Assembly: GCA_015178975.1 (NCBI GenBank)
Contig: WHVD01000126.1
Span: 124,001 to 188,000 of the forward strand
DNA: 64,000 bases
Direction of reading: 5' to 3'
DNA from: Hysterangium stoloniferum
Lineage: Eukaryota > Basidiomycota > Agaricomycetes > Hysterangiales > Hysterangiaceae
The first letter of the stretch is position 1; each line of letters opens with the position of its first letter. The notes under the pieces were generated by a model. It ran no database searches, had not been told where the DNA came from, and saw nothing but the letters and a program-made list of their open reading frames with translations. Positions 1-59,600 of this stretch are shown here, piece after piece. The position numbers and the translations under genes were made by a program.

Positions 1-3000
1 TTGACAACTGTGAGTAAAGTATGTATGAAGAACCTTGGGCCACTTGAGGGCCCTGCAAAATGAATACGTCCAATGGCAAATCCCCTTTTCCTTGTATTCC
101 ATTTTCTGTTTTTTGAATTCCATGTGAAAAATTCTGGAAAATCAACATAGTGAAGTGAATTGGCTGCTCTACCATTAAGGCCTATTGTATTGTTAGAATT
201 GGCCTCAAAGTATGCCATCAACTTAGTCTTGGAACGATGGGCAGCATCCAAAGCTTCTTCTGGACCCTCCATGCCATCAAAGATAACTGATTGGTGATTC
301 TCTAAATGCACAGGGAGGGCTATGACAGCAGGAATTTGAGTATGTATCTCATTTTCCAAAAGTCTCCAAAATGCTTCATGTGCACTGACATAGCGGGCAT
401 CAATATATTGTTGAATTTCATCCTTGTTCTTTCCAAACTCCATTGTTGTACGATCATGTCCTTTGTATATATACTTGTGAATATATTTAATGGAGCGAAC
501 ATTAAAAGTCATCTCAACATTGATATGACATTCCAGAATGAGAAGAAGGGCAGCACAGTAAGGGACAACATGTCGATTGTCTAACTCATGACCTCTGACT
601 TTATGTTTTCTGCCATCATTTCTACGGTGGTACTTTGAATAGCCATCTTCATTTATACTTGTAGATTCACGAAAGGGCTTGGGAAAATGCTTTGTACATT
701 TGTTATCTTTGATACATTTTTCACCACATACATGAGTCATGAGCTCAGATACCAACTTGTAAAGCTTGGGTTCCTCCTCTTGATCTGGAAACCCAGCAGA
801 TATCATAGAATCAACTTCTGCAGGAGTCTGAAGCTTTGCCCCCTCTTCAAACCATATGAGCAAATGCATATGAGGGAGACCACACTTCTGAAATTCAATG
901 GTATGGACACGGGCAACTGTTTTGCCAAGGTAATTTTTCTTCATAATGAGCTGAAGCAAGTGTGCCTTTTTCAATGCAAAAACACGTGACACTATATCTG
1001 GGCGATCAGCAGCAGTTTGCCCTGGAAGAAGTGCTTCAGTTATTTCCCTCCATTTGGGGTTGGCTGTCATAGTAATAAACATGCTTGCATTGCCATATTT
1101 GCGTGATATAGCCAGTGAATTTTGCAAATTTTCCATCATATCCCGACTGCTACCTTGGAAGGTTGCTGGCAGTATAAATCTACTTCCAATTTCATTTGGC
1201 TCAGGTTGCTGGTTATTATCCTGTACTGTGAAGGCATCAACCACCTGATGGTACATTTCAGCTCATAAAGTGCCTTGATTGTGTCTTATCCATGATAGCC
1301 TGCTTTGCTCTGCTGCTGCCCATGCATCTACAATGTATTGCTGAAGCAGTTTTCCACCCCTCAGAATTGTAGTTGCTTCACCAATTCTTTGAAAGAGTCG
1401 ATAAGCATAATACTTTATCTGGGAGACTTTTGTCTGCTTTTTCTTCTGCCTATTCTCTGTCACTTGTTCAGGTTCAAGTTCTTCAGTAATTCCTTGCACC
1501 TCATCCTGTTCCATAGCTGGCTCAGGAGGTGGTATAGCATCATCAACTGGAATATCTATTTGCTCAGGTGGGAGAGGTACAACTTGGGGAACTACTTCAG
1601 GTTGAGGAATCACTACCTCTGGCAAGTCAGGTATTATCTCCTCAGGAGCTGGTTCAAGGACTTCTGGCCCTGGAGCAATCTCCTCAATAGCTGCTGGGGC
1701 TAGGACTATCTCAGCAGGGAGTGGTTCATTTGCATAGGGAATATCCCAACTCCAGCCTCGCTCTCCTCTTGGAAAGAATAGTACATAATGGAGTGGAGCA
1801 TACAAAGGATTAGTTTCAAAGATTCTTCTAAATGCTCCACCCTGATAATTAAGCACAATGTCTCTTCTATCAGTAGAAGTACCATCCTCTGGGAGAATGA
1901 CTGCCAACTCATCCCCTGTTGGAATGTTGTATCGCCTTGGATCTGTATGAGCTTTATATGTTAGCCTGACCTGAAGCTGAGGAGTGATTGGTTGGTCTCT
2001 CAGACGTGTCATAGCTTGTTTATAGATGTGAACAAAAGGATTAAATTCTAACATCATATCCTGTAATCCAGAAAGAGTTGTAGCATTGATTCTTTTGTCC
2101 TGGTTACGTGCATACCTATGCTCTAATGCAGCATCTGCTTCATAAAAGTAGAGCTGAGCATAGGAAGGAATTTGACCCTCATTAGGAATCAGAGCACCAT
2201 GATTATGTCTAAGTTCCCCATGGAGTTTAAAGACATAAGGACCACGTTCCCCATCAAGCAATGACCTGTCCATTGTAGCACCCAGGGAAGTAAATGCTAA
2301 AGCAGAATTATATGCCCGGATATTTTTACGAAAATCTTTAGAATCTGCATCCTCAGGATTCTCTAGTAGATGATGTAATGGTTGAGGGACATCTTCAAGT
2401 ATAGGTAATCTGATCTTTCCAGATAGACAACAACTTCCAAAAAGAGGATTATTATTAGAGGAATGCTGAAGACGCTCTGCCATCCAATGTAATGCATTGC
2501 ATTTTGAACATAATACAGTCATTGTTCCCAGATAATGTGGCTGCAGCAGTGGATTATTCTCATCAATTGGGCACCTGGCCAGGGGGAGTGGCCCAGGGGG
2601 TCCAGGAGGTGGTGGAACAGGTTCAGCAGGCTCAGGAATATGTGGTAACGGTAATGCATCCTCATCCATTGGTACAGGAACAATAGGAGGAATAGGAACA
2701 TGATCTAAAGGTAAGATAGGAAGAGCAGGAATAATCTGAGGATTCTGGGAGGGTGCCTGTTGTAATGGAAGGGCAGCTGCCTGAACTTGTAAAGCAGTGA
2801 CTGCTCTTCTGCCAATATGAAGTGGCAATTCAGAGAGAGGTGGAGCTACATTTCTTCCCCGTAACCATCTATTATTAAGAGGGGGAGGTGCAGGGACCCT
2901 AGCAGCCTGATCAAATAAGTCTCTCACTGCTCTCCTGCCCCACTGCAACAGGATGCTGTAATGCAGTAGATGATGATGCAAGCTGTGGTCCATCTGCCAA

Positions 3001-3409
3001 TTGTGCACATATATTAGCTACAACAGTGCCAGGAGTAAGAGCAGGACCATCTATATTACTTGATGATCCAGCAATAGCAAAGGGATCCTGCTGATTGTTA
3101 GGCAGAGGATTGGCAGGAGGGACAATATTACGTGATGATCCAGCAATAGCAAAGGGATCCTGCTGATTGTTAGGCAGAGGATTGGCAGGAGGGACAATAT
3201 TATGTGATGATCCAGCAATAGCAAATGGATTGGCAGGAGGAGCCAAGAGGAATAGTACAGGAGCAGAAATAGCATGCTGCTGAGAAACACCATCATGTCT
3301 CAGGCGGCAACGCTCAGTGTGTGGGGTCATTACCAAACGCTGCTGATGGTCCTGAGCACGTATATTCTGCTGATTGTGTTCAGGTGTAGAAGGTTCAGAA
3401 GGTAAATCC
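1..3409 (-). pseudogene. Helitron Rep/helicase, N-terminal and Rep part
   Basis: Rep would nick and join DNA during rolling-circle transposition. Going down from 3409, the frame encodes a disordered N-terminus with three copies of a PPANP...FAIAGSS repeat, then a Pro-rich stretch. Next come a CSKCNALHW zinc-finger-like motif near 2500, the conserved FPRGERGWSWDIPYAN block near 1770-1725, and the Helitron-like N domain. The HUH motif reads KCGLPHMHLLIW near 880-850, and the two-Tyr motif reads QYIDARYVSAHEAFW near 400-365. I translated the frame down to base 1 and found it open except for one TGA at 1263-1265, where the second copy at 24640 reads through. One frame change near 2950 is also needed. 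It continues off the window. Start choice is uncertain because the first visible exon follows an intron at 3410-3459. Confidence 0.85.
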
Positions 3410-6315: not shown

Positions 6316-6320
6316 CCATC

Positions 6321-6864
6321 TGTTACAACCCATTCCCAGATGTTTCAATATCCGACTTCCGATCTCTGACCATGGAACATCATAGTTACCATATCATCCG
6401 CATTCTTCCCTTGTTCCGTATTTGGTAATTTGTCCGTTGACAAGTATTCACTCGTTTGTTTGTTGTATTCCCATTTCAGAATATTGTCTCCCTAATATGT
6501 CTTATTGTATTTCCGTTTTAAGCACACTTCCATTTCCATCTTATTATGGTCTTAGTTTGTAGTACAATAACGAGTAGACTTATATTAGTTTCCGCGAATT
6601 TGTACTTTACCTTAGATCTGATATTGACTTAGTTTCTTATTCCTCCTCCCGTCTTTCTGTACACTCGATATTCGGAACTCTTCAGAACTCTGAATATCTG
6701 TATCTTCCATCGTAAGTCTTACTTCCGAAATTAAGGACTTTGAGCGTTTGCATAGAGGCGCAGCACATAAGCTGAAGCCGACGTCCTGACCCTATCCACT
6801 AGTTCCCGACTTCCCGGTGACTTTCTGATAGTTCCGGAATAAGTTCCTGACATGGCACTTAACA
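6321..6864 (+). repeat. 5' LTR of element A
   Basis: 544 bp, begins TGTTACAACC and ends GGCACTTAACA. It matches the 3' LTR at 13206-13708 along its length; the 3' copy lacks about 41 bp near its end. The self-primer complement AGATCTGATAT lies at 6614-6624, and if priming is as proposed this marks the RNA 5' end. The motif CATAAGCTGAAGCC near 6764 is shared with other LTR families here. Confidence 0.95.
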
Positions 6865-6866
6865 GT

Positions 6867-6877
6867 ATATCAGATCT
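6867..6877 (+). promoter_or_regulatory. self-primer binding site of element A
   Basis: ATATCAGATCT starts 2 nt after the LTR (spacer GT). It is the exact 11-nt reverse complement of 6614-6624 inside the 5' LTR, with the 3' LTR equivalent at 13499-13509. Tf1/sushi-group elements prime minus-strand synthesis from the first 11 nt of their own RNA in this geometry. No TGG-type tRNA primer site is present here. Confidence 0.75.
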
Positions 6878-6898
6878 GAACTCTGCGACTCGCTCATC

Positions 6899-8128
6899 AT
6901 GGGTCCCAAACGGAAAGCTGCTGAAGGACCATCCCAACTTCAATTCCCGTTGCAACTTTACACCACTCAACCTGAAACCCCTTTTCAGCTGACAACATCA
7001 GCTTCAGTCAAAGAAGTTACTGAGGAGGTTACCGAGGTAATGAAGGACACCAATGTTCCCCACACTTCCGACAACGAAGCAGAAGATCAGCCGGAGACAT
7101 CGAAAAAGAAATCTTCCGATGAACCGACTGAAATGTTGTTCATCAACTCCATTGTGAAATTCGCTGACTACTTTAAATCTGCTGAGGATAGTAAAGAATC
7201 ATCCCGCACTGGAGTCAAAGAACCTGAACCATTTACTGGCAAGGATCTGAAAAAATTGAAGAATTTCCTTCTCCAATGCCATTTCAGTTTCTGTGATCGA
7301 CCCTCCGCATTTAAATCTGACAGTCGAAAAGTCAATTTCGTGCTCTCTTATCTCAAGGATACCACTCAAGATTGGTTTGAACCTGGACTATCTGGAATAT
7401 CCGACGAGACACCCGTATGGCTCGACGACTGGGACACTTTTGTGGAAGAACTGGAAACTAATTTCGGACCTTATGATCAATCCAGCAAAGCGGAAAATGA
7501 ATTAATGACGCTCAAGATGAAGGACAATCAATGAGTTTCCGATTATCTCGTCAAGTTCAATACCCTCGCCGCACGATGTGGATGGGACGATTCTGCCCTC
7601 AGACACCATTTCTATATGGGACTTCCATCACGCCTTAAAGACGAGATCTGCAAAGATGGGAAGCCGAAAACTCTCCAACTCATGCGGATTAAAGCTCAAA
7701 CATCTGATGCCCGTTATTGGGAACGAAAAGCCGAGGTCTCTCGAGAGAACCTGACGGAATGTTCTCAGAATAACAAGGTGTCGACTAGCAAGTCTTCCGG
7801 CAACAACTCAGGCAATAACACCGGCAACTCTGGCACGAATACTGGCAAATCAAACTCCGACTGGAAGAAAGACAAGAAATCCAACAAGGAAAAACAGTCA
7901 ACTTCCGACAAACCCGACATTTCCCATTTGTTGGGTACCAACGGTAAACTCACCCCAAAGGAGAAACAACAATGTATGGACAATGACCTCTGCCTTTTCT
8001 GTGGGACAGGTGGACACAAGGTTTCTGACTGTACCATTAAATCTAACTCTTCCAAGGCCCACGCGGCAACTTCCACTACGACTACAATGTCTAAGGAAAA
8101 ACCCACCATGGAGTCGAAAAAAGAGTAA
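6899..8128 (+). pseudogene. gag: gag of element A (nucleocapsid with zinc knuckle)
   Basis: Encodes a capsid/nucleocapsid polyprotein of about 409 codons starting at the ATG at 6899, 35 bp after the LTR. The capsid-like part includes the ETNFGPYD region near 7455-7475, which recurs in the E and D remnants. An Asn/Ser/Gly-rich linker follows, then a CX2CX4HX4C zinc knuckle (CLFCGTGGHKVSDC, near 7990-8033). A TGA at 7532-7534 breaks the frame. The D remnant reads a sense codon there and the frame continues to TAA at 8126-8128. Pol lies in the -1 frame, overlapping the end of gag at an A-rich run. Confidence 0.9.
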
Positions 8129-11100
8129 GCAACCCTCCGGAATCTGCATGGACAGAGGGTTGCATTGACTCTCTCTGTGTTTCCAAGGTTATCCGTCTCA
8201 ATGCGTCCACTCTCTCTAATCCCGATTCATTATTTGTAAAACTCGTTTCTGACTTTCTTGGAAATTTAGTGTTCCGAGCTCTGATAGATTCCAGCTCCAC
8301 ACACTGTTTTGTAGATACCACCTTTGCCTTGAAACATAATCTGAAACTCCATTCTGTTCCCGCAATTTCCTTGCGTCTGTTTGATGGCACTAGCAATACA
8401 GCAATTACCCAAGCCTGTGACATGTCTATCCAGTTCCCTTGTGGAACATCCCAGATGGTTACTTTTTTCGTAACACAGTTGGACTCTAGCTGTTTGGTAG
8501 TTCTTGGATACAACTGGCTCACCCGATATAATCCGTTGATTGACTGGGTATTGGGCAGTATTAATTTCTGAATTCCCGACACTTCAGTTCCTCCTGCAGC
8601 GTCTCTTCCGGCCAACACCTTTTTGGCATCAGCGGCACCTCCGGCTTCTACCAAAACCTCTGTGCCTCCAAAAATCTCTCTCATCAATGCTTCGGCATTT
8701 GTTAGGGCGAGGAAACTGGATGGTTCGCAGTGTTTTTGGATCAGCTTAAAAGTTGATGAAGCATCTGGACGTTTTGCGACTCCAGAATTATCCGAGCTAA
8801 AAGCCAACCTGGAAGGAGTTCCCGAAAAATACCATGATTTCACAGACATTTTCAGTAAGCAAAAAGCTGACAGGCTTGCACCACATAGGCCCTACGACCT
8901 AAAATCAATATTGAGCCCAGTTCAAACCCTCCGTTAGGACCTATTTACCCATTATCCCAATCAGAACTTTCGTCTATTTGGGAGTTCCTGGATGAACATC
9001 TGTCGATAGGTTTTATCTGTCCCTCAAAGTCTCCATATGGAGCACCCGTCCTTTTCGTCCGAAAGAAGGATGGCTCCCTTCGACTCTGTGTCGATTTCAG
9101 AGGATTAAATTCCATCACACGGAAAGATAAGTATCCACTTCCACTCGTTACTGATTTACTCGATGCCCCACAGAAAGCTCAGATCTACACCAAAATAGAC
9201 CTCAAACATGCCTATCATTTGGTCTGAATTGCCAAGGGCGATGAATGGAAAACTGCTTTTCGAACTCGCTACGGATCCTTTGAATGGTTGGTTATGCCGT
9301 TCGGCCTTACCAACGCCCCTCCTGCTTTTCAACGTTTTGTTAATGATATATTTTCCGACATGCTTGACGTATGTGTTATAGTCTATTTGGATGACATTTT
9401 GGTATTTTCCAAAGATCCCGCTCTCCACAACGAACAAGTCCGTGAAGTCTTCCGAAGACTCCGTAAAAACGGTCTTTTCACCAACGGTAAAAAATGCTAC
9501 TTTGACATGGATTCTATTGAATACTTAGGTTTCATTATCAGACCTGATGGTCTCCACATGGATGAAACCAAGGTTCAAGTTGTCCGTGATTGGCCCGAAC
9601 CACGGAAAGTCAAGGATATTCAGTCATTTTTAGGTTTCGCCAACTTTTACCATCATTTTATTCAGAACTACTCGGATATTACAGTAGCGCTCACTCGTCT
9701 TACCCGTAAAACTCAACCATGGGTCTTTGACGACAAATGCCGCTCCACCTTCCAGACTTTAAAAAATGCTTTCACTTCTGCCCCGATTCTCTCCCATTGG
9801 AAACCTGATGTTCTGATTATTGTGGAAACCAATGCTTCCGATTATGCAATTGCCGTGATTCTTTCCATTCAAGATTCTGATGGTGAAATTCATCCGGTCG
9901 CATTTCTTTCTCGGACACTGAAAGTGTCCGAACTCAACTACGATGTTCATGATAAGGAACTTTTGGCAATTTTTGAAGCTTTCAAACATTGGCGCCATTA
10001 TCTCGAAGGTTCCGCAACTCCCGTTGACATTGTTACCGATCACAAAAATCTCAAATATTTTTCCACCACTAAACTTTTAACCCGCCAGCAGGCCCGCTGG
10101 TCTGAATTCCTTTCCGCTTTCAACATGATTATCCATTTCTGACCCGGACGTCTTGGTGGAAAACCAGATGCCATGACTCGACGATGGGACGTCTATCCTA
10201 AAGAGGGGGAAAGTAACTATGCCATTGTTAATCCGCATAACTTGAAACCGGTTTTTACAACGCAACAACTTTCCGCATCTATCTGAGCAACTTCCCTCTA
10301 CTACCCAATTATGCATAGTGTCATGATTATGGACATTGAGCAATTACATCAAGATATCCTTTCCGCACTCACTTCCGACCCGGCTCTCAAGCCACACCTA
10401 GAAGTTCCTGACAATCCGGACCAACCCCGATGGTCACAAGACTCTCAAGGTTTTATCCATCTCGATGGACGTATCTACGTTCCAGATTCCAACAATCTCC
10501 GACTCCGCGTACTTCAGTATAAACACGATCATCCAATCTCCGGACATTACGGCATTAACAATACTCTTGGTTTAATCCGTAGAGAATACACTTGGCCCAA
10601 CCTCCGAGATTTCGTAACCCAGTTCTGTAAGTCATGCACCACCTGCTTATGCTCCAAAACCCAGAGGCATAAGCCGTACGGCCTTCTCATGCAACTCCCG
10701 ATACCAGAAAAACCCTGGAACTCAATTTCCATGGATTTTATTGAACAACTCCCAACTTCCGAAGGCTTTACATCCATTCTAGTTGTTGTGGATCGATTCT
10801 CAAAACAAGGCATTTTCATACCCACTCATGATACAATCATGTCCTTACAATTAGCGGAACTTTTCATTATTCACGTATTTTCCAAACACGGAGTTCCATC
10901 TCACGTAACTTCTGATCGAGGCTCCAAGTTCATCTCCCATTTCTTCCAGGCTCTCAGAAAAGCCCTCGACATGAAACTACACTTCACCTCGGGATATCAC
11001 CTGGAAGGTGATGGACAAATGGAACATGTAAATCAAACATTGGAACAATACCTCCGCATCTATTGCAATTATCAACAGGACAACTGGAAATCCCTTCTCC

Positions 11101-11812
11101 CGATCACGGAATTTGCCTACAATAACTCTCCGAATGCAACTACCGGCGTATCTCCTTTCTTCGCCAACAAAGGCTATAATCCGAATCTCACTGTACATCC
11201 CGAACAAGATTTGGCTTCTGTCCGTGCTCAAGAATTTATTACCGACCTCAACGAATTACATCAAGAACTTCAGAAAGCTATTTCTTCTGCACAGGAATAT
11301 TATCAATGTTCCGCGGACAAAAACAGGATCCTGCCTCCTAATTTTAAAATCGGTGATCAGGTTTTTGTAAAAGCTCAATTCTTCCGTACTACCCAACCTT
11401 CTAAAAAACTCGCTGAGAAATTTGTAGGCCCTTTTGAAATTATAGCACAAGCTGGTTCTCTCTCATGGACTCTCCGACTTCCCGATAGTATGCGAGCAGT
11501 TCATCCCATTTTCCACGTTTCCATGTTAGAACCCTGTGTTCCTAACAAACATCCCGGAATGTATTCAACCTCCGTCTCCTCCTCATCATTGACAGAGAAC
11601 CCGAATTTGAAGTTTCCGAAATTTTGGATTCTAAAATCGACAATCGCCGACATACTTGTAAATTGCTCTATTTAGTCAAATGGGCAGGTTATGAAGGTAC
11701 CGACGAGGAAACTTCATGGATATTGGCCACGGAACTAGGACACGCTATGGAAATTGTTACTGATTTCCACACAGCTTATCCAAGCAAACCCAGACCTTTA
11801 TCTTCACTCTGA
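8128..11812 (+). pseudogene. pol: pol of element A: protease, RT, RNase H, integrase, chromodomain
   Basis: The protease at about 8270-8560 reads ALIDSSSTH, so the usual D-S/T-G is D-S-S. RT spans about 8945-9500 with YLDD at 9384-9395, and RNase H about 9790-10100 with ETNASDYAI and DHKNLKYF. Integrase spans 10311-11560 with an H2C2-type finger (HPISGHYG ... CKSCTTC). Its catalytic Asp is at 10914-10916 (SDRGSKF) and Glu at 11022-11024, giving the canonical DD35E spacing. A chromodomain lies at about 11600-11790 (LLYLVKWAGYEGTDEETSW). In-frame TGA codons lie at 8569, 9225, 10140 and 10284, all where Arg is expected. Frame changes occur near 8910 and 11580. Chromodomains target integration to modified chromatin in chromoviruses. 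Confidence 0.92.
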
Positions 11813-11908
11813 CCATTTCCGTTTTCTTTCTGTTCAGTTTTCCGACACCTCCGTTACTTCCGATATCACACTCGTTTTGAAATCATACAAGTCAAATTTA
11901 TTTGCATT

Positions 11909-13021
11909 CTATTTTAAAGTTTCCGACACCCCAAATCCACCTTCCATCCTGACTTCCGTCTCATCAGCAATTTCCGCACTTTCCACCATATCCTGCACCT
12001 CTTCATCCTCACTCTCTAACATTTCCAGCCCATTCCCTGACTCCCATCTTTTTTTGACACTTTCCGCCAATGGATCATTAGGCTGTTCCCTCGCCTTATC
12101 GGAAAATCTTTCGGAAACTGCAATAATACCGATGGTAACCATTACCTTCTCCAGGAATTCGTTCTGCCTCCGGAAGTTTCGAATCAACGAACGGAAACCT
12201 TTTTCCTGGATTTCATTATGGCGATCCAGTGTATCTCGCATTTTCATAACTTCCGTCCCGATAAAGACTAATGCGTCGACTGTGTCCTTGAGGAGCTCCA
12301 TGCCCATACTATCCATTTTTGGTACCTCAGTTTCTGCAGCTTTGGCAGCTCCCGAACTTTCCACGTCATTAGTTTTCTGAGGCTTCTCACCTTTTGGAAC
12401 CCTTTTCGAGGCGAGAGTGCATGGAAGTTTAAGAACTGCACAGGGATAGCAAGTTCCACCCCATTTTACCTTCTGTTTCCAACATGTCATACTCCATATG
12501 GAACATCGATAACACAGATTTTCATGGACCACTTCCATCCATTCCAGAGCCTTGACCTTTGGCTTCTGTTTCGGAAGTTAGTCAATTACCGGCCTTTTGT
12601 AGATGCACTTACTTTAGGACTCAAAGGTCCAGCCTCTCCCTCTACCTCCACCTCCACGGCTTTTCACTGTACCCAATAGTTATCGGTTGAAACCACGGAA
12701 TTTATGGATAACACTTACCTTTCCTTCCCTTATCTCCTCACGTTTTTTCGCCGCCTCTGACTCCCGCTGTAACCTTTCCGCCTCTTCCTTCCTTTTCTGA
12801 GCCTCCGCCTTCGCCTGCTCCAACTCCCGTTTTTCCGCCTCTTCCGCATCTTTCAACTCCTGCATCAACGCTTTCTCCTCCTCCTCCTGTCGTCGCTTCA
12901 ACTCCTCCATCTTTCATCATTTTTGTTGAAGTTCTGCGGCCTTCGACATTTTTTGTAGAACGGCAATTTCGGTATCTGAATCTTCCAGGGTAGTGATGAA
13001 CAGTGGCCGACGTATCGACAT
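11909..13021 (-). CDS. opposite-strand three-exon accessory gene of element A (coiled coil plus Zn2Cys6-like)
   Basis: I do not recognise a named family. Predicted exons: 13021-12719 (101 codons), 12666-12613 (18 codons), 12565-11909 (218 codons and stop). All junctions are phase 0. The introns of 52 and 47 bp have GTAAGT donors and CAG acceptors. Exon 1 gives a Glu/Lys/Arg-rich predicted coiled coil, and exon 2 is short and acidic. Exon 3 has C-X2-C-X6-C-X10-C-X2-C-X6-C (near LCYRCS ... GGTCYPCAVLKLPCTL), which fits the fungal Zn2Cys6 spacing, followed by helical and acidic segments. The gene ends 97 bp from the pol stop and points toward it, so the two are convergent and do not overlap. TGA codons at 12919-12914 (two) and at the start of exon 2 look like decayed Arg or similar codons. 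The same layout is seen at 58602-59600 in element D. Function unknown; DNA binding or regulation is inference. Confidence 0.75.
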
Positions 13022-13192
13022 ACAAGTTGTGGATGAAGAAACAAAAACATTAATTCAAATATTTGGAGGTTTTTATACTCAGAACATCAGCTGAAACTCT
13101 CACCTCCAGAATTGCGTAAATTTCACGACACATAATAATCAGCCGTCACTTCAATCACTCAGTACCTAATCGCCTCTATGGGATTTCGGCCT

Positions 13193-13205
13193 AACAGGGG
13201 GGTAC
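13193..13205 (+). other. polypurine tract of element A
   Basis: AACAGGGGGG followed by TAC lies directly before the 3' LTR. This is the expected plus-strand primer position. Element D has the comparable AAAGGGAGGGTAC before its LTR at 59766. Confidence 0.7.
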
Positions 13206-13708
13206 TGTTACGACCCGTTCCCGGATGTTTCAATATCTGACTTCTGATCTCCGACCATGGAACATCATAGTTACCATATCATCCGCATTCTTCCCTTGTT
13301 CTGTATTTGGTAATTTGTCCGTTGACAAGTATTCACTCGTTTGTTTGTTGTATTCCCATTTCGGAATATTGTCTCCCTAATATGTCTTATTGTATTTCTG
13401 TTTTAAGAACACTTCCATTTCCGTCTTATTATGGTCTTAGTTTGTAGTACAATAACGAGTAGACTTCTATTAGTTTCTGTGAATTTGTACTTTACCTTAG
13501 ATCTGATATCAACTTAGTTTCTTATTCCTCCTCCCGTCTTTCTGTACGCTTGATATTCGGAACTCTTCGGAACTCTGAATATCTGTATCTTCCATCATAA
13601 GTCTTACTTCTGAAATTAAGGACTTTGAGCATTTGCGTAGAGGCGCAGCACATAAGCTGAAGCCGACGTCCTGACCCTATCCACTAGTTCCCGACACGGC
13701 ACTTAACA
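13206..13708 (+). repeat. 3' LTR of element A
   Basis: 503 bp, begins TGTTACGACC and ends GGCACTTAACA, followed by the target duplication CCATC. It is nearly identical to the 5' LTR, with scattered C-to-T or G-to-A differences and a deletion of about 41 bp near the end. Confidence 0.95.
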
Positions 13709-14289
13709 CCATCCCATTCCCTTCTGATGGCATTCCATTATTCCTAGCATCACTTCACCACATCATTTGCCACCTCAGAGTATTGATCTTTTTTCTATGG
13801 TCTTTATTCCTTTTCTTGATCCACTGTTCCATTTTCCTAATTTCCTGTGTTCTGTTAATATAAAATCAGTCCTCCATATTTCCATTTACATTGGTAGAAA
13901 ACCTGATCTTGTAGACTACTACCCTTCAGTTTAAATATTGACTCAGAATGCCCATTTTGAATCCCCCTCTCATGTGTAGAAGCTTATGGAAGAATAACTC
14001 TTAGTATCCCAAGCCTCTGGCAATTACACTGGGTGCTATACATTTATTTAAAATCTTTTCAAAATATCAATGAGGATGGAATAACAGTCCACAAAGGATG
14101 TAACAAAATGGTCAGGAATAGAACAGTTTAACAATGTTATTTAACTGAATTTACTGGAATTTGATTGGATTTAATTAGAATTTACTGAAATTTACTGGAA
14201 TTTTATTGGATTAGTGGATTTACAGGTTTATTGGTATTTCATTTAATTGACTGGCATTTTTCTCCATTTCCCACAATTCTGAAATTTAT
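13709..14289. other. AT-rich stretch with no gene seen
   Basis: No convincing open frame, RNA gene or transposon end is visible. At 14140-14270 there is a loose repeat of tttactggaattt-like words. It may be the only non-transposon sequence in this part of the window. Confidence 0.4.
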
Positions 14290-17078: not shown

Positions 17079-17200
17079 CAAGCTTGGGAACCCTTGCTAC
17101 ACTGTGGGGCAGTCACTTCATGACCTGCCCCACACCTTTGCTGCGGGCTCCAGCTTGTTGGGGGGTAAAGCCCCCCAAACCCCCCCATGTCGACAACTCT
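17079..17200 (-). other. Helitron 3' terminal hairpins
   Basis: On the minus strand there is a G-run with a GGGGGGC...CCCCC-type palindrome, then a long hairpin (GTGGGGCAGGTCAT-GAA-gtgactgccccac), then GGGTTCCC and terminal CTTG. The same arrangement occurs at 20765-20880. Subterminal hairpins mark Helitron 3' ends. Confidence 0.6.
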
Positions 17201-17249
17201 TAAGTATTTCTGAGACTCATTGTCAGAGACCAAGGAAATTGCTTTCAAA

Positions 17250-17890
17250 TGGAAAGTCTCGTAGAACGTAAAGTCTCGTAGAACGTAAAGTCTCGTAGAA
17301 CGTAAAGTCTCGTAGAACGTAAAGTCTCGTAGAACGTAAAGTCTCGTAGAACGTAAAGTCTCGTAGAACGTAAAGTCTCGTAGAACGTAAAGTCTCGTAG
17401 AACGTAAAGTCTCGTAGAACGTAAAGTCTCGTAGAACGTAAAGTCTCGTAGAACGTAAAGTCTCGTAGAACGTAAAGTCTCGTAGAACGTAAAGTCTCGT
17501 AGAACGTAAAGTCTCGTAGAACGTAAAGTCTCGTAGAACGTAAAGTCTCGTAGAACGTAAAGTCTCGTAGAACGTAAAGTCTCGTAGAACGTAAAGTCTC
17601 GTAGAACGTAAAGTCTCGTAGAACGTAAAGTCTCGTAGAACGTAAAGTCTCGTAGAACGTAAAGTCTCGTAGAACGTAAAGTCTCGTAGAACGTAAAGTC
17701 TCGTAGAACGTAAAGTCTCGTAGAACGTAAAGTCTCGTAGAACGTAAAGTCTCGTAGAACGTAAAGTCTCGTAGAACGTAAAGTCTCGTAGAACGTAAAG
17801 TCTCGTAGAACGTAAAGTCTCGTAGAACGTAAAGTCTCGTAGAACGTAAAGTCTCGTAGAACGTAAAGTCTCGTAGAACGTAAAGTCTCA
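17250..17890. repeat. perfect 17-bp minisatellite, about 37 copies
   Basis: Unit aaagtctcgtagaacgt repeated without visible change. Because 17 is not a multiple of 3 and the unit lacks minus-strand stops, two overlapping minus-strand frames of over 220 codons with a 17-residue period appear. These are artefacts of the repeat. Degenerate relatives of the unit occur just downstream at 17995-18340. Confidence 0.95.
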
Positions 17891-18478: not shown

Positions 18479-19222
18479 TGTTAAGAACTGGAAACTGACT
18501 AATGTCGGTGGACTGACGGGGACCGATCGGAAGGACTTGGCTTCAGGTTATATATGTGCTGTGCCCTTGCAGTTATCTGTCGGGTGTCCTTAAATTTTGG
18601 GTGGGCGAAGACTAGTCTCAACGAATACCTCTCAGTGAACTACTGATTGGAATCGAGAGACAAGTTGAGTGTTGGGCCAAGGGGTCAGGGACCGAAGGGG
18701 GGCGAGTGCACGTGAAGGCGGATAGTGGAATTCTTAGCATGAGAGTGCTATAGACGTAAGAGGGTGTTCTGAGTCGATATTCTGATTGCCTAGTAACTAC
18801 AACTACAGCGGGTTCATATACAAGTATCAGGCATCTAGAAAATACTAACTAGGAGAAGGGCAGAAAATTGTATTAACAATAAGCTTGACTAGGAACGGGA
18901 AGTTTATGATTAGTTCGGAGGCCGATGATAACTGAGAGTGGAATTATGGTAAAAGGAAATAGTTCGAGGGTTACAAATATAGATAGACATATGTGAAACA
19001 TAGGATAGAACAGATCATCATAATAAAAGGGATGTATCAGAGTTTAACCAGATAGTTCAAGTATATTTTGACATGGGCATAAACGGAGTTTGATCACTGT
19101 GAAAGCGTACGTCAGCATCAGGAGGCCGATAGTTTCCGATGTGGTGACTTGAACAGTAACTTGAATTGTCGATATGTGGTGATAACTTCGGGAACTGATA
19201 GGGTTGTGACATGGTCGTAACA
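18479..19222 (-). repeat. solo LTR, F family, in the 19-bp minisatellite
   Basis: 744 bp from TGTTAAGAACTGG to GGTCGTAACA with duplications CAAAT at 18474-18478 and 19223-19227. It is the reverse complement of the solo LTR at 29703-30442 and CpG-rich, unlike the third copy at 62246, so it is probably recent. It carries ggacttggcttcagg near 18533. Confidence 0.92.
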
Positions 19223-19262
19223 CAAATGGAAACAACAGTGACAAATGGAAACAATGGTGACA

Positions 19263-19555
19263 ACAGGTGCAACAGTGACAAAAGGTGCAACAGTGACAAA
19301 AGGTGCAACAGTGACAAAAGGTGCAACAGTGACAAAAGGTGCAACAGTGACAAAAGGTGCAACAGTGACAAAAGGTGCAACAGTGACAAAAGGTGCAACA
19401 GTGACAAAAGATGCAACAGTGACAAAAGGTGCAACAGTGACAAAAGGTGCAACAGTGACAAAAGGTGCAACAGTGACAAAAGGTGCAACAGTGACAAAAG
19501 GTGCAACAGTGACAAAAGGTGCAACAGTGACAAAAGGTGCAACAGTGACAAAAGC
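19263..19555. repeat. 18-bp minisatellite (ggtgcaacagtgacaaaa), about 16 copies
   Basis: Near-perfect units with one g-to-a variant near 19410. The unit length is a multiple of three, so open 6-residue-period frames appear on both strands. They are not taken as genes. Confidence 0.92.
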
Positions 19556-19599
19556 AGCAATGGTTTCAATCAAACATTGAGTTGATCTTACTGTCATGT

Positions 19600-20035
19600 A
19601 TTGTCGTTTATTTTACTTGATGTAATTTTTTTTAGTTTATTATATTTTATTTTATTTTATTGTACTTCATTTGGATTTAGTGTTATTTATTGTATTGTAT
19701 TGTATTGTATTTTATTTTATTTTGTTTTGTTTTGTTTTGTTTTATTGCATTTTATTTTGACTCATTGTATTTTATTCTGATTTATTACATTTTACTTTGG
19801 TTTATTCTATTTTATTCTATTTTTAAACATTTGATTTTGATTTATTTTATTTTATCCTGATTTATTGTATTCTATTTTGATTTATTACATTTTGCTTTAG
19901 TTTACTCTATTTTATTCAATTTTTAAGCATTTTACTTTTCTTTTTTGTATTTATTTCAATTTATCCTATTTTATTTGTATTTTATCTTGATTTATCCTAT
20001 GTTATTTTGATTTATTGTATTTTATTTTGATTAAC
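19600..20035. repeat. T-rich low-complexity tract
   Basis: Simple attttattttgattta-like words on the plus strand. No gene or RNA is seen. Confidence 0.8.
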
Positions 20036-20880: not shown

Positions 20881-23465
20881 GACTCTTAAGTATTTCTGAG
20901 CACTTCTAAGTATTTACATATCACAATCATTGTTAAAAAAAATTCAATCAAAACAATAAATACATTAAAACTTTGTACACTATATTTGCTGTTCTCTTTG
21001 TTTCTTTTAATAATATTTTTATCCTATTCCAACTTCTTCCCCTTGAAAGTCCCACATACAATTGCCCATGTCCAAACACTGCCATTCTCAAATCTATTCC
21101 TACCACTTTCAAAGACTGTCCCTGTGACTTGTTGCAAATGCCAACCGCACTGGAAACTGAATATGATGCAGTTTAAATGGCAGTTGATCATCATTTGTAA
21201 TTATTTTGATCCATGAAAGAAATGCCATTTTTCCAGTACATGGTCCAGTTAAGATCCACACTTGAAGCAAATGATTTTCCATTTTCACTAATCACAATTG
21301 TGTCCCATTGAAAAGCCCCCTCTGTGGATCTATGTTCCGTAACAGCATCAAAGGTACTCCTAGCTTCACCTCAAGCCGACTCAGTGAGATTCCACCAAAA
21401 TTCAGGCTGTTCAAATACTCTACAGGATACATCTCTGTCTCACTGTCTCCCTCTGCAGTATCAGCACTGTGGTATACATGACTCTCTCCAGGGAATTTAT
21501 TCAGAAGTTCTGAATTAATCTCATCTACCTCTGAATTCCTTGGACACAGAATTGCCTGGTCTAAAAAGTCTTCATCTTGCCAATCTCTTTGGTCTCTATC
21601 CACATGGATGTCTGGATATATCTCTGCAATTAGATTAGACATTTCTGGACCACAGATCATATGAGGAGGGATATCCATTGTATGATCCAAAGGTAAATCC
21701 TTTCCATGGCCTATATCCAATAGCCACTCAGCAAACTGTTGACTGTCTGGATCATCCTGGTCCACCTGCATATTCTTTTTCAAGAACAGTACCTTAATAT
21801 GCTTCCACAGTTCTGATTTCTGGATACATTGTCCAATGATCTGTTCTTTTGAACCCTTTGGTACAACAGGCAAAGTCTGCTGGAAGTCACCTCCCCAGGC
21901 CACAGGAATCCCTCTAAAGGGAAGATCCTCCTTGTCTAATAAATCCCTCGGGTTTCGGTCAACTGCCTCACATGTAAAACATGACTGCATTGGAACTTCA
22001 TCCCAGATAATCAGTCAGACTTTCTTCATGAGCTCTGCTTTTTCTGAACCCTTTTTGATATGACATAGAGCGTCCTTCTCACAGGGAACAGGGATTGAAA
22101 ATGTGTTGTGAGAAGTGTGACCACCCTTGAGAATCATTGATGCAATTCCAGAAGATACCACACAAAGCACAATGTAGCCCTTGGCATGACATGCATGTGC
22201 CAGAGTATTCCATACAAAGGACTTGCCAGTGCCACCTGGACCATTCACAAAAAACAATTTGCCCTGCTGCTCCTCATCAACTGCCTTCATAATAGTCTCA
22301 AAGGTAGCTCGTTGTTCAGGATTGCACTTTTCAAGATTGGCTTGGGCACTGGCATGCTCAATATCAACATCATAATCTGACTGCTCCTTAATGAGACAGT
22401 TGCCAAGAATCCCATTCCAAACATCAGTACAATTTGGCATAGTTGGATAGTGTGAGAGGGACTTTCCAGAATAGTGGAGGATCCTATCAATCTCATAGAG
22501 ACCAAAGTCATAAATGCTGTTTGGTGATGGATTGAGAATGCCATGTTCTTGCTGAAGTATGAACTTCAAATCATCACAAAGAAATACTGCGACTGGCTTC
22601 TGTGAGGCACATGTGCCACTGGCGATCATCTTCAAGCAAACCACATGCAACACAGGCTTGTTGAAATGTGGGATAGGTCTCACCCTGAAAGGTCCTGAGC
22701 TGTTCAAATGAGGTAGCACCTTTGACCACAGTGAGTAATGTACGGAGGTGGAATCTTTCCCCACTGGCAATATTAACAAAATGAATACACCCTATGGAAA
22801 ATCCAGGTTGATGTGGCTTCCATGATTTAGTCTTGGGTACAAATGTAAAATACTCAGGAAAGTCCATATAAAATGTATCCTTGGCATGCTGTCCATTATA
22901 TCCAATGAGATCCTTAGCATTAGCCTCAAAATAAGCCATGAGAGTTGTCCCTGAATGCCCTGCCCTTTGCAAAGCTTCAGCAGGACCTTGATCACCATCA
23001 AAAACTACAGTGTTTTTCCCAGGGAGATGGACACGGAGTGCCATTACTGCAGGAACCTGGGTGTGGAGTTCATTGCACATTAATCACCAGACAGACTCAT
23101 GTGCACTGACATAACGTGCATCAAGGTACTGTTGAATTTCATCTGGTGTTGTTCCAAATTCCATAGTTGTACAATCATGGCCCTTGTAACAGTATTTATG
23201 CATATACTTCATTGAACTATTGGTAAAGGTCAACTCTACATTGATGTGGGATTCAAATGTGAGAATCAAAATAGGGTAGTAAGGGACAACATGTCTGTTG
23301 TCATATGTAAACTTGGGAGTTTCATAAACCCTTCCATTGTTAGGGCGATGGCATGTTGGATAGCCTTCCTCATTGACAATGGTGGCTTCACACCACTCCT
23401 TTGGATAGTGTTTACTACATTTCTTATCTACCATATAGGCAGCATTTGGATGATCAGTTCCACAG

Positions 23466-24098: not shown

Positions 24099-25849
24099 CA
24101 CATGGACCATGGGTCATGAGTTGCCCTACTAAATTAAATAGCCTGGGATGTGTTTCAGGATCTGGAAAACAGGCAGAAACCATTGAGTTGACATCTTCTG
24201 GTGTCCTTGGCTTATTCTGGTCATCAAACCATATGAGGCAGTGCATGTGTGGAAGACCACACTTTTGGAATTCAATAACATGGATATGAGCTACTGTTCT
24301 ACCAAAGATGTGATCTTCTGTGATCATCTTGAGCAACTTAGCCTTCTTGGCAGCAAAGACACGGGAGACCAAATCAGGCCGATCAGCAGGGGTCTGGCCA
24401 GGAAGCAATTCACGGGTGACCTCCTCCCAATTGGGATTGGCAGTCATAGTGATGAAGCAGCTGGCATTGCCATACTTGCATGCAATTGCAAATGAATTCT
24501 GTAGACTTTGCCTCATATCTCTTGAACCCCCAGCAAATGAAGAAGGTAGTATCACCTCTGACCAATATTATTAGCATCTGTATTGACATCCTGATTTGTA
24601 AATGCATCAACCACCTGGTTGTAGAGTTCTGCATGTAACCTTGGTTGATTATCTCTCAGAAATCTCAATCTGCGCTCTGTTATGGCCCAGGCATTGACAG
24701 TATACTGCTGGAATAGCTTTTGTGCATAAAAAATGGTCACGGCTTCATTTGCTCTGGGAAATAGGTGATAGCATAATATTCACATTGGGTCACTTTACAC
24801 TTTTATCTTCACCTTCAACTTCTTCATCCTGCTGTCCAGGGTGGGGCTGCCAATTTTGATTTGCATAGGGAATATCCCATGACCAACCACGCTCACCTCT
24901 GGGGAAGAGCATGACATAGTGAAGGAGTGTATAAATGGCTTGTGCATCATGCACATGATGGAACTGGCCTCCCCTTCTCTGAACAATAATATCCCTTGGA
25001 TCACCACGACCTGTGTCACCCTCTCCAGGGAGAATGACTGCAAGTTCATCATCGGTTGGAAGGTTGTACTGTCGTGGATCATTAAAAGCCTTGTAGCTCA
25101 GTCTAACATGTAACCTTGGAGTCTCTGCCTGTGTCCTCAATCGTTCATGTGCCTGGAGATAGAGTTCTATAAAGGGATTATATTGCTCCATCATATCCTG
25201 GAGGTCAGAAAAGGTTTGGTTGTTTAGATTTCGATTTGCCCTGTAATTCTGCCTCTGCTGCAATGCTTGCCTCAGTCCATCCTCCTCTGCCAATGCAGGA
25301 TCATGGATGTAAAGCTGAGCATAACTACGTGATACACCTTCTGTGTAAGGAATCAAGGAACCATGCTGGTGATACAATTCACCATGAATTTTGAAGACAT
25401 ATGGGCCACCACCTTGCAAGACAGACTCATCCAAATTGACACTGAGTGATGTAAATGCAAATGCATTATTATATGCCCGAATATTTTTCCAAAATTCCTT
25501 ACCATTATCTGTATTATCCTCAAGGAGGGACCTTAAAGTGTGAGGGACTGGCTCAAGTATTGGAAGGGCCACCTTTCCTTGCTTACAACACTTGCCAAAT
25601 TTTGGATGTGTCTTGGAGCTATTTGCCAGATGCTCATCCATCCAGTGAAAGGCTCCACAGTTTGGACACTGTATGTTCATATGTCCCAAGTCATGTCTTG
25701 GAAATCTGTCCTCCACAACTGGTTGCCGTCCAATGGGTAATTGTGGAATGGGAGGTGGAGGTGGAGGCATAGCTGCAGGCTGTAAAATGGCTGGAGGTGG
25801 GGGAATAGCTGGAAGTGGAGCAAATTGTAATTGTAGCTGTTGCTGCTGC

Positions 25850-26265
25850 TGTTGTTGTGGAACTGGATTCCCAGGTGGATGATGAAGCTGTGGTGGTGCC
25901 CACTGCACAATAGGTGGTGGTTGTTGTTGTGGAACTGGATTTCCAGGTGGATGGTCATGCTGTGGTTGTGCTAACTGCAAAATAGGTACCTGTTGTTGTG
26001 GAGCTGGATTTCCAGGTGGATGGTGAAGTTGTGGTGGTTCCCACTGCAAAATAGGGGGTTGTTGCTGTTGTTGTGGAACTGGATTTCCAGGTGGATGGTG
26101 AAGCTGTGGTGGTGCCCACTGCACAATAGGTGGTTGTTGTTGTGGAGCTGGATTTCCAGGTGGATGGTGATGCTGTGGTGGTGCCCACTGCACAATAGGT
26201 GGTTGTTGTTGTTGTGGAACTGGATTTCCAGATGGATGGTGATGCTGTGGTGGTGCCCACTGCAA
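25850..26265 (-). repeat. coding minisatellite: Gln/Pro repeats in the Helitron 2 N-terminus
   Basis: Six to seven units of about 60-70 bp encode HHPPGNPVPQQQQPPIVQWA-like repeats that vary in Gln number. Unit lengths keep the reading frame, which suggests past coding constraint. Confidence 0.8.
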
Positions 26266-26419
26266 AATAGGTAGTGGTGGTACAGCTGGATGATGGTGCA
26301 GTGGTACAGATTGGACAATTTGAGCAACTGTATTTCCTCATCCACAACCCCTCCTAAGAGGTTGTAATGGTGGCAAATCCATATACTGCCTATGAAAGAG
26401 AGCTACTGCCTCAGAGTCA

Positions 26420-30611: not shown

Positions 30612-31236
30612 ATGCCACCAAGAATAAAAGCACACATACAGGAATCATTACCTGGACCTTCAACTCTTCATTCCCCACTTACTTTATATACCAGCCAGAC
30701 ACTCAAAAACCAGCCAGATGCCACAGAAGAAGCCTGTATTGAAGAACTCCTGGAAAACCTGGATGAATCCGAGAACAAGGACAAGTCTGTGGCCCCTGAC
30801 AAGGGCAAAGGTGTTGAAAATTCCCTGTCTAATGATCGACTGCCACTTGCGGATCCCACCTCTGAGTTGTTAGCAATCACTTTAGAGAGATTGATGAATC
30901 ACATGCTCAGAGAAGGCAGCAAGAAGGATCTGGAACCTTTGCAGTCAAAGTCAATGCTCTGGAACCCTTTACAGGTTCCAACCCTAACAAACTTTCCACT
31001 TTCCTCATGCAATGTCACTTCAATTTCCATGATTGATCCGCTGCACTCTCCACAGACTCCCGAAAAGTCAATTATGCACTCTCATACCTCTCAGGATCTG
31101 CATTGAAATGGTTCGAACCGGCTTTTAGTGGACTTTCCAAGAAAGAGCCACTTTGGCTCAAAGATTGGGATGCTTTTGTTATGGAGCTAGAAACCAACTT
31201 TGGCCCATATGACCTGACTGGAGAAGCCGAGAATAG
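30612..31236 (+). pseudogene. gag: gag remnant of element E
   Basis: Starts MPPRIKAH at 30612. It resembles element A gag in its N-terminus (LTLYTSQTLKNQPD against LQLYTTQPETP) and in the stretch WFEPAFSGLSKKEPLW ... ETNFGPYDLTGEAENSL near 31100-31230. A frame change lies near 30950. The gene ends abruptly where the 19-bp minisatellite begins, at a shared ctcacaa. Confidence 0.8.
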
Positions 31237-31917
31237 TCTCACAAATGGAAACAACATTCACAAATGGAAACAACATTCACAAATGGAAACAACATTCACA
31301 AATGGAAACAACATTCACAAATGGAAACAACATTCACAAATGGAAACAACATTCACAAATGGAAACAACATTCACAAATGGAAACAACATTCACAAATGG
31401 AAACAACATTCACAAATGGAAACAACATTCACAAATGGAAACAACATTCACAAATGGAAACAACATTCACAAATGGAAACAACATTCACAAATGGAAACA
31501 ACATTCACAAATGGAAACAACATTCACAAATGGAAACAACATTCACAAATGGAAACAACATTCACAAATGGAAACAACATTCACAAATGGAAACAACATT
31601 CACAAATGGAAACAACATTCACAAATGGAAACAACATTCACAAATGGAAACAACATTCACAAATGGAAACAACATTCACAAATGGAAACAACATTCACAA
31701 ATGGAAACAACATTCACAAATGGAAACAACATTCACAAATGGAAACAACATTCACAAATGGAAACAACATTCACAAATGGAAACAACATTCACAAATGGA
31801 AACAACATTCACAAATGGAAACAACATTCACAAATGGAAACAACATTCACAAATGGAAACAACATTCACAAATGGAAACAACATTCACAAATGGAAACAA
31901 CATTCACAAATGGAAAC
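31237..31917. repeat. perfect 19-bp minisatellite, about 36 copies
   Basis: Unit acaaatggaaacaacattc without visible change. All three plus frames are open, giving 19-residue-period frames (for example 31103-31996, fused to gag). Related to the arrays at 18350 and 19263. A repeat-driven artefact, not a protein gene. Confidence 0.95.
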
Positions 31918-31919
31918 AA

Positions 31920-32351
31920 TGTTGTTATCACCTATTAGAGCTGTATGCTTGAGAATGCTGAACGTAACTACTCAGCCATGGAATGAGAAGCATTAGTGGC
32001 CAAAGAAGGGCTAGTTCATTTCCAACCCTTTATTGAAGGTGAGCACATACTTCTCATCACTGACCATGTGGCTTTGCAATGGGCCAGATCTTACAAGAAT
32101 ACTAATCATTGACTGGCTGCATGGGGGGCAGTATGCACCACATACCCAGGTCTAGAAATCTTACAATTGGCAGGATGAATTCACATTAATGTTGATCCAT
32201 TGTCCAGACTTCCCCAAGTACCCAACTACAAGAGCCCTGTAAGGGATGACCACTGTCATCAATAATATCGGACTCTCTTAATAAGGATGCTAACGAGAAG
32301 CTATGGGAGAGCAAGCCAACTGAAAGAGTAGTCTTTACCACTTACCACAAG
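31920..32351 (+). pseudogene. pol fragment related to element B (RNase H region)
   Basis: Matches element B at about 45685-46120: NYSAM.E.EALVAKEGLVHFQPF, then LLITDHVALQWARSY, then DPLSRLPQVP. Several stops and frame changes; only this fragment remains. It joins the minisatellite at its left end. Confidence 0.75.
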
Positions 32352-33639: not shown

Positions 33640-34037
33640 AGTGGAAACGTGATCGAAGAATCGGAGAACAAGAGCGAAAATGGTAGTCCAGGAATTTGTA
33701 AACTGGGGCAAAGGAAGAATGTCTGTTGCAACATCATGTCAAGAATGTCAAATTTTTCTAGACAGTTGAGAAGGTTGGAGCATCAGTCAGATAATCAGTT
33801 GGAAAAGGAAATAAAAAATTGATTGGTGAAAGGATGTCGAAATTAGAGGAAACTATGGAAGATTTAATCGGTGAGGTTAAAGGGTTCAGAAAGGATTTTT
33901 CGGTTTTGTCGAAGAAATTGGTCAAAAGTGGCGATTTTAGTGAGGAGACTGACATTAGCGTTAATAGTGGAAGATTTAGGGGGGCATGGTTTGATAAGAT
34001 GGCAGAATTGAGAGAGGAAGGAATTGAGGATTTGTAG
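33640..34037 (+). pseudogene. remnant of the opposite-strand accessory gene of element C
   Basis: It occupies the same place as the genes at 11909-13021 and 58602-59600 (between pol and 3' LTR, convergent with pol). Visible pieces are NWGKGRMSV ... SCQECQIFLDS in one frame, then SKLEETMEDLIGEVKGFRKD and MAELREEGIEDL in another. The CX2C resembles the second half of the Zn2Cys6-like motif. Frame changes and the truncated LTR side prevent an exon model. Confidence 0.5.
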
Positions 34038-42731: not shown

Positions 42732-42736
42732 GCAGG

Positions 42737-58601: not shown

Positions 58602-59600
58602 TTAGTCCTCTATTACAATAGGCAGGTCTTTCTTCTTTCCTGCCTCAACAAACTCATCATGAAGCTCCTTGAGCTCCTTGGGCCCCATGGCTCCCTCCAT
58701 CCCTCCTGTCCCCTTGGAATCCCTGGAGTCCTCAGAATCCATGACATCAGACACTCCAAAGTCCTTGTAACCCACCATAACTCCCAGAAAAGTCTGTGGA
58801 ACTGTTGAAAACCCTTTACAAGGGCCTTGCTGGTGTTATTGCTCTCCTGCAACAAAATGTTCTGGGCCTCAATGCCCATGGCAATCCACCCCAGAACTTC
58901 CTCCAAGGCCCCCAGCCTTTCCACATGACTTCCCGATTCCCAGGAACCAGACCCTGATGCATCTTGCACAAGAGAGCACTTTGCTTTCAAGTGCATGCAT
59001 GGCCAACATCCCAGGCCCCTGACTGGATTTCCAGTAGTATTCAGTGTTCTGGTCATTACAACCGGAGCACTGCAGGTCATTTTTGGTCTCCAGGTGGGCT
59101 GGAGCATTCTTTTGAGCCTTCTGTCAAATATAAGTCAGTTTGGATCTCCCATGGACTGCCCACTTACCTTTTAAGGACTCCCCTGCTCCCCCTCAGACTC
59201 TGACTCAGCTTCCACCACTTTGCACTGTTAGTATGGTCAGTTCAAGGTGTTATGAAACAAAGAAAATGCTTACTTTTCCCATAGAAACCGTGGACACCTT
59301 GGCACATTCTGTGGCAACCTGAGCTGCCTCTCTATCCACCTCTTCTATCTTTGCCACCTCTTCCTTTTCCCTCTTCCTCGGATCCTCTGCCTCCTTCTCT
59401 GCAGCCACTGCCACCTGGTATTCCCTGTCCAGCTCCTCCTCCTCTTCCCAGGCCTTCTTCTCAGCCTCTTGGCATTGGCAACACTGCTCTTTGCACTGCT
59501 GTAATAGTTGAGCAGCCATGAGTGGAGCCCAATACATGGACCCTGTGGATGACCTGGTGGTTGGCTTATGTGGTGTTGGTTTTGGACCCATAATTGTCAA
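58602..59600 (-). pseudogene. opposite-strand three-exon accessory gene of element D
   Basis: Homologue of the gene at 11909-13021. Exons 59600-59274 (109 codons), 59224-59168 (19 codons), 59120-58602. The introns of 49 and 47 bp have GTAAGC and GTAAGT donors and ACAG acceptors. Exon 1 has a Glu-rich coiled coil (EEEEELDREYQVAVAAEKEA). Exon 2 has AESESEGEQGSP with a TAA near its end. Exon 3 carries LQCSGC, then a Tyr where the third Cys stands in element A, a frame change, then CWPCMHLKAKCSL. Exon sizes, phases and intron sizes match element A closely although the sequences are well diverged. Convergent with pol, whose stop is near 58426. Confidence 0.75.

Follow-up and report, generated by a model that had tools for sequence, protein, structure and literature searches.

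Gag and pol are commonly regarded as the only genes that an LTR retrotransposon requires. In the window analysed here, a stretch of 64,000 nucleotides from the genome of Hysterangium stoloniferum, a Ty3/gypsy element carries a further, spliced gene on the strand opposite to pol. The question is whether this gene encodes a protein that is of use to the element and, if so, what that protein might do.

Element A and its surroundings

The carrier, element A, is assigned to Ty3/gypsy by the order of protease, reverse transcriptase (RT), RNase H and integrase between two LTRs and by its 5-bp target site duplication (TSD). Its features are listed below.

6321-13708: element A, Ty3-type gag/pol on the + strand, with LTRs and TSD CCATC
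6316-6320 and 13709-13713: TSD copies CCATC flanking the element, read from the sequence
6321..6864, +: 5' LTR, TG..CA, 544 bp, direct repeat, bounds read from the sequence
6899..8128, +: gag region with Ty3/Retrotrans_gag-like and CCHC parts, from open reading frames and Pfam, start by eye
8095..11812, +: pol region with protease, RT, RNase H, integrase and a Tf2-type SH3 part
13206..13708, +: 3' LTR, 503 bp, bounds read from the sequence

The two LTRs are 95.3% identical across 490 aligned bases, and a polypurine tract adjoins the 3' LTR (by eye). In gag, the Pfam family DUF4939 is found over its cut-off, while Ty3_capsid, Retrotrans_gag and the CCHC knuckle score below theirs. The pol region matches RVP_2, RVT_1, RNase H, H2C2, rve and SH3_Tf2-1, and its stop codon is located at 11810-11812 (by eye). 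In the window copy gag has one in-frame stop, and gag and pol together are broken by stops and frameshifts.

The Ty3 families A, B and C all have members in the window. A family A LTR on the minus strand (55082-55619, 93.7% identical) is found within element C and is probably a solo LTR. A more distant Ty3-like element occupies 42707-49571 on the + strand, with an RT piece 36% identical to that of A; it is followed by long sense-strand frames (for example 48003-48995), and no opposite-strand gene is evident there. Minisatellites are present at 31037-31996 (19-bp unit, dozens of copies, within a gag-like open frame that stays open) and at 17095-17887 and 19180-19623 (17 and 18 bp units in near-identical copies, several frames being open in the first). 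Minus-strand frames at 1263-3017, 21292-22791 and 24790-26337 resemble Helitron-type Rep N-terminal and Pif1-like helicase pieces, and the 296-aa frame at 63005-63895 (+) resembles a Tc1/mariner-type transposase.

The opposite-strand gene

The gene and pol are arranged tail-to-tail, the gene lying beyond the pol end (11812) and before the 3' LTR. Its parts, in the order of minus-strand reading, are as follows.

13022..13205, -: leader, with TATAAAA at 13077-13071
13021-12719, -: exon 1, 303 nt, charged helix
12718-12667, -: intron 1, 52 bp, GTAAGT..ACAG
12666-12613, -: exon 2, 54 nt, acidic
12612-12566, -: intron 2, 47 bp, GTAAGT..ACAG
12565-11912, -: exon 3, an open frame in most copies, followed by the stop codon at 11911-11909

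A preliminary description, made from the window alone, had proposed three exons behind pol that are joined in phase 0 across GT-AG introns of 52 and 47 bp, and this arrangement was confirmed. Minus-strand reading also confirmed the spacing C-X2-C-X6-C-X10-C-X2-C-X6-C in exon 3, which encodes, in order, a basic run resembling a nuclear localization signal (NLS), the six-Cys module, a helical part and an acidic tail. The first Cys codon of the module is 12514-12512, and the window string is C-YR-C-SIWSMT-C-WKQKVKWGGT-C-YP-C-AVLKLP-C; it is the sole match to a looser six-Cys pattern in the six frames of the window. The terms "coiled coil" and "acidic linker" of the same description may be kept as readings of composition: in copy L020, residues 31-112 of exon 1 consist of 63% D, E, K or R. 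The lone structure model, an AlphaFold prediction for the window exon 3 from a single sequence, is of very low confidence (mean pLDDT 46).

The window copy itself contains three premature in-frame TGA codons, two in exon 1 (12919-12917 and 12916-12914) and one at the start of exon 2 (12666-12664), so that the full protein cannot be made from it. The same places are read through in other copies. The window copy is a pseudogene and the gene itself is real; the reading of this locus as a spliced opposite-strand protein gene on a gypsy element thus holds for the gene but not for the window copy, which is dead.

Copies in the genome

The 111.1-Mb assembly (554 contigs) was searched with exon 3, and at least 150 matches were scored among 677 candidates. 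Among the 150 matches listed, the identity is 73-92%, the window itself apart, and 109 have no stop (hand count). The family A alignment comprises 34 copies: the window, 6 loci chosen as the best exon 3 matches to the window and 27 pol-anchored copies. The full pol-anchored set of 31 copies is not random, being the first 20 and last 11 by score of 91 non-window matches.

In 26 of the 31 pol-anchored copies, exon 3 is found opposite the copy's own integrase at full or nearly full length, one of them frameshifted. In one further copy an insertion interrupts exon 3, two others have lost internal parts of it, and L035 and L029 end short of it; the exon 3 adjacent to L029 belongs to an inverted neighbour and not to the pol of L029. 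The junctions of the two deletions (L028 and L023) were each matched whole only by their own copy among the best 40 matches listed, and hence no spread of either deleted form is seen.

Selection on the protein

Purifying selection among copies had been named beforehand as one test of this gene, and it was found in both large exons. In exon 3, 28 of 34 copies keep the opposite-strand frame open, and none of the 34 does so for any other frame. The median dN/dS of exon 3 is 0.219, with all 528 pairs below 1 (33 of the 34 copies, all of the same genome, the frameshifted L030 being left out). The ratio is 0.45 among the 9 closest pairs and declines with distance, to 0.21 for the pairs farthest apart, as is expected if old lineages were selected while new copies decay freely. 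For exon 1 the value is 0.208 (274 of 276 pairs, 24 copies). With CpG-type changes masked, the values are 0.222 for exon 3 and 0.135 for exon 1; pairs with dS of 0.02 or less were left out of the exon 1 and CpG-masked medians. The integrase of the same family has a dN/dS of 0.173 (32 copies, 496 pairs), compared with 0.219 in exon 3. Counts of exon 1, leader and spliced models use 29 of the 34 copies, since the 5' part of L002, L003, L016, L034 and L036 is disrupted or cut, and a further 5 of the 29 were dropped from exon 1 because their length is not a multiple of three.

The values for codon positions 1, 2 and 3 are 0.040, 0.061 and 0.153 in the Cys module and 0.094, 0.045 and 0.252 in the helix, while in the linker they are 0.176, 0.178 and 0.193. 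In exon 3 it is the Cys module and the helix that are constrained; the linker is not. The six cysteines are kept in 33, 33, 32, 33, 32 and 33 of 33 copies, respectively.

The splice sites are retained as well. Among 33 copies (L003 left out), the GT donor is kept in all at both introns, and the AG acceptor in all at intron 1 and in 32 at intron 2. The intron lengths vary by single bases, from 51 to 58 for intron 1 and from 47 to 51 for intron 2, and exon 2 measures 54 nt in 29 of 29 copies. Upstream of the ATG, TATAAAA occurs at a distance of 56-57 bp in 28 of 29 copies, and the leader has a median p-distance of 0.068 versus 0.176 and 0.255 in the introns. Spliced models free of stops and frameshifts were obtained for 11 of the 29 copies. 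The 23 spliced models of intact length contain 18 in-frame stops, every one of them TGA, a pattern consistent with C-to-T decay.

It is barely credible that the frame is open by chance or reflects constraint acting on the sense strand. Four of the other frames of exon 3 give dN/dS of 1.10 to 1.47. The sense frame s1 has a low value, 0.27, and the window also has a 213-aa frame in sense orientation that overlaps the gene; however, s1 shares the wobble position with the gene frame, contains 3.06 stops per copy on average and is open in 0 of 34 copies, and the 213-aa frame has no Pfam match, while the splice sites and exon lengths fit the opposite strand. The opposite-strand gene almost certainly encodes a conserved protein.

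Counterparts in families B and C

Two further Ty3 elements in the window, with integrase 55% identical to that of A in element B and integrase pieces 63-70% identical to it in element C, carry remains of a similar gene.

58616..59591, -: decayed counterpart behind the pol of element C, with the same three-part layout
33795..34034, +: C-terminal remnant of a counterpart behind the integrase of element B, which is on the minus strand

In the genome, the element C counterpart gave at least 150 scored matches among 954 candidates, and the element B counterpart gave 124 matches. The spacing in family C is C-X2-C-X6-C-X9-C-X2-C-X6-C in 7 of 9 fetched copies, the other two being frameshifted or cut; in family B there are eight residues between Cys 3 and Cys 4 in 10 of 10 copies. 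The gene is located opposite the integrase end in all six family B and C loci that reach this end. A TATA-like run is found upstream of the gene in family C also, and none is evident there in family B.

The dN/dS is 0.16 for family B (45 pairs, 10 copies) and 0.23 for family C (21 pairs, 7 of 9 copies, L044 and L057 being left out). The B and C copies were selected for long open frames, and thus the absence of stops in them is by choice. Comparison of sequence profiles indicates a firm relation of A with C (E 1.8e-6, probability 89.8%) and a weak one of C with B (E 0.0012, probability 19%), and A and B appear hardly linked (E 0.084, probability 0.7%). The membership of family B rests on common place, strand and spacing.

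These data bear on two other explanations. A host or foreign regulator gene might have been taken up recently by one element and be carried without use, as the broken window copy and the internal deletions in 2 of 31 pol-anchored copies could suggest. This explanation is very improbable, for there is purifying selection in three families and many copies, and among the matches listed neither deletion junction is found whole in a second copy. The second explanation would place the function in the RNA: transcription toward pol would yield double-stranded RNA that tunes or silences the element, the protein being secondary. The convergent layout of gene and pol would suit such a role, and an RNA function has been proposed, in passages of PMC7264820, for the antisense additional open reading frames of plants. 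However, dN/dS of 0.16-0.23 in three families, with the five other frames closed, shows that selection acts on the protein. An additional RNA role is possible, but RNA as the main function is improbable.

The six-Cys module

By definition, the fungal Zn2Cys6 domain has the spacing C-X2-C-X6-C-X(5-12)-C-X2-C-X(6-8)-C, and its first loop is usually basic and contacts DNA. The spacing of the module in families A (X10), B (X8) and C (X9), C-X2-C-X6-C-X(8-10)-C-X2-C-X6-C, falls within this pattern. However, the loop between Cys 2 and Cys 3 is not basic: it reads SIRNMT in A, FNTNFV in B and NDRNTE in C. Basic residues are found instead between Cys 3 and Cys 4, in K-rich form in A and B. The Pfam family PF00172 is below its gathering cut-off of 21 in every A, B and C protein tested, with sub-threshold scores in two of six of them (L043, 12.4 bits; L010, 8.6 bits), and no Pfam family matches the window exon 3 at E <= 1. 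The Zn2Cys6-like label of the preliminary description is therefore not earned, and the likeness is one of spacing only. In a genome scan with PF00172, none of the 42 places found coincides with the listed A, B or C gene matches. On the contigs C56, C115 and C209, Zn_clus matches are grouped closely in single frames, as if there were several clusters per host protein.

The searches for homologues in protein sets used family A sequences. Exon 3 alone found nothing at E <= 0.001 in a set of 5.8 billion proteins (298 candidates), and an alignment of five full-length sequences found nothing at E <= 10 in the same set (7,984 candidates scored). The integrase, used as a control, gave 3,148 matches from 5,626 candidates, and those named among the best 120 of the 3,148 are from Trametes, Pisolithus, Scleroderma and Armillaria; the set thus includes fungal relatives. 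The accessory protein is probably too fast-diverging for word-based search, or is skipped by gene callers because of its introns. A search of viral contigs with the integrase found no relative. Two sequence matches in the PDB, at E 0.31 and 0.91, are meaningless.

The position of the basic residues, between Cys 3 and Cys 4 and not in the first loop, where DNA contact would be expected, raises the possibility that the module is a knuckle with a structural or RNA-binding task, which would aid packaging, reverse transcription or the nuclear import of the pre-integration complex and would play no part in transcription. Retention of the gene in active-looking elements is what would be expected of any replication factor. 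On the other hand, element A already encodes a CCHC knuckle in its gag (below the Pfam cut-off), the product of a separate opposite-strand transcript must reach the particles in trans, and the NLS-like run, as judged by composition, would point to the nucleus. We consider a role in the particle or on RNA rather unlikely.

Apparent exchange of exon 3 between lineages

Copies with closely similar integrase may carry very different versions of exon 3. The medians of third-position divergence are 0.104 for integrase and 0.251 for exon 3, with a correlation of 0.60 (325 pairs, 26 copies, L029 left out). The integrase divergence is below 0.08 in 129 pairs, and in 39 of these exon 3 differs by more than 0.25. 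Between L013 and L021, for example, integrase has diverged by 0.017, exon 1 by 0.079 and exon 3 by 0.294. Most discordant pairs involve one diverged type of exon 3 (L011, L013, L019 and L024). The pairs are thus not independent, and a few events may explain the discordance. The simplest reading would be recombination that swaps the exon 3 module among element lineages.

Silencing pressure from the host

CpG transitions account for 188 of the 238 differences between the LTRs of the same element in the 19 family A elements with two LTRs, and the genome encodes a DNA methylase (2 matches). Family A elements have very probably been methylated. The CpG transitions and the methylase together indicate that silencing pressure exists, and an anti-silencing role for the opposite-strand protein would be attractive.

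Proposed function

Introns on the sense strand of a retrotransposon are lost at the first retrotransposition cycle, and an intron-bearing gene persists only on the other strand. The introns described here are on the strand other than that of the genomic RNA and are thus not removed by retrotransposition. Because they are kept, the spliced protein would be made only from integrated DNA. Transcription would be driven by the gene's own TATA promoter, a candidate for which is located just inside the 3' LTR. The predicted product of 339-350 aa would consist of a charged helix, an acidic stretch, the NLS-like basic run, the six-Cys module, a second helical part and an acidic tail. The NLS-like run, two helical parts, acidic tail and zinc-cluster-like module together make a nuclear regulator the closest resemblance. 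The NLS and the capacity for self-association are read from composition only, and zinc binding is a prediction.

These features allow us to propose, with a probability of about 0.5, that the gene is a fourth gene of a group of Ty3/gypsy elements, spliced and on the opposite strand, whose product self-associates, is stabilised by zinc and works in the nucleus as an accessory protein on the element's own DNA or chromatin. It might influence transcription from the LTR, help the element to escape silencing, or take part in the handling of the pre-integration complex. A more specific form of the proposal is tentative and less likely than not: the gene would be an ancestral fourth gene of an agaricomycete Ty3 group, encoding a zinc-cluster nuclear factor that counters silencing by CpG methylation or activates the LTR, and would be swapped among element lineages as a specificity module.

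A spliced opposite-strand gene kept by selection in three families of one genome means that an additional protein is of benefit to these elements. With its numerous natural variants, clear-cut exons and small, defined Cys module, this fungal system makes the function of an accessory gene testable. Six-Cys "hypothetical proteins" abound in mushroom proteomes, and it may help annotators to consider that unexplained ones could be transposon genes.

Comparison with known systems

In plants, antisense additional open reading frames between pol and the 3' LTR are called aORF-3R, with examples in maize Grande (gene23), rice RIRE2, Silene Retand (TRP28) and Phaseolus PvRetro13, according to passages of PMC7264820 and PMC11963269. 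The same sources report that Grande gene23 has its own upstream promoter and a nuclear protein, and the function of the plant genes is called undetermined in PMC7264820. As described in these passages, the plant genes resemble the fungal one in place, orientation, retention in most copies and conservation. They differ in their domains (TRP28, SMC), while the fungal gene has three exons and a six-Cys module; the two are set apart here by description. In the main text of PMC11963269 the terms "intron" and "zinc" are absent. Among titles and the beginnings of abstracts, with few subscription journals covered, no six-Cys opposite-strand gene was found in a basidiomycete element. The passages of PMC7264820, PMC11963269, PMC8365987 and PMC4227169 that bear on the subject likewise contain no spliced six-Cys opposite-strand gene common to several families.

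The brtn gene of Boty elements was reportedly described by Zhao et al. in 2011. In passages on Boty of Botrytis cinerea, brtn is an extra antisense gene (PMC8365987; PMC4227169; PMC7264820). Boty is similar to element A in being a fungal Ty3-type element with a chromodomain pol and an extra antisense gene, as far as these passages describe it. However, the host of Boty is an ascomycete, and the passages on brtn are silent on introns and Cys clusters; this comparison is one of descriptions only.

HBZ is a bZIP protein. HBZ and APH-2 of HTLV are nuclear opposite-strand accessory proteins with a promoter at the 3' end, according to passages of PMC11963269 and PMC7264820. The likeness, as described there, is that of an opposite-strand accessory protein encoded behind the sense genes; it is a working parallel, and no relation is claimed. 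Since opposite-strand genes behind pol were already known from plants and Boty, the novelty of the present gene lies in its being spliced, in its six-Cys module, in its presence in several families and in its apparent exchange. If the proposed nuclear role is true, the gene would be the fungal equivalent of accessory genes of the retroviral HBZ type or of the anti-silencing ones in plants, and its spliced protein could be read from integrated DNA only.
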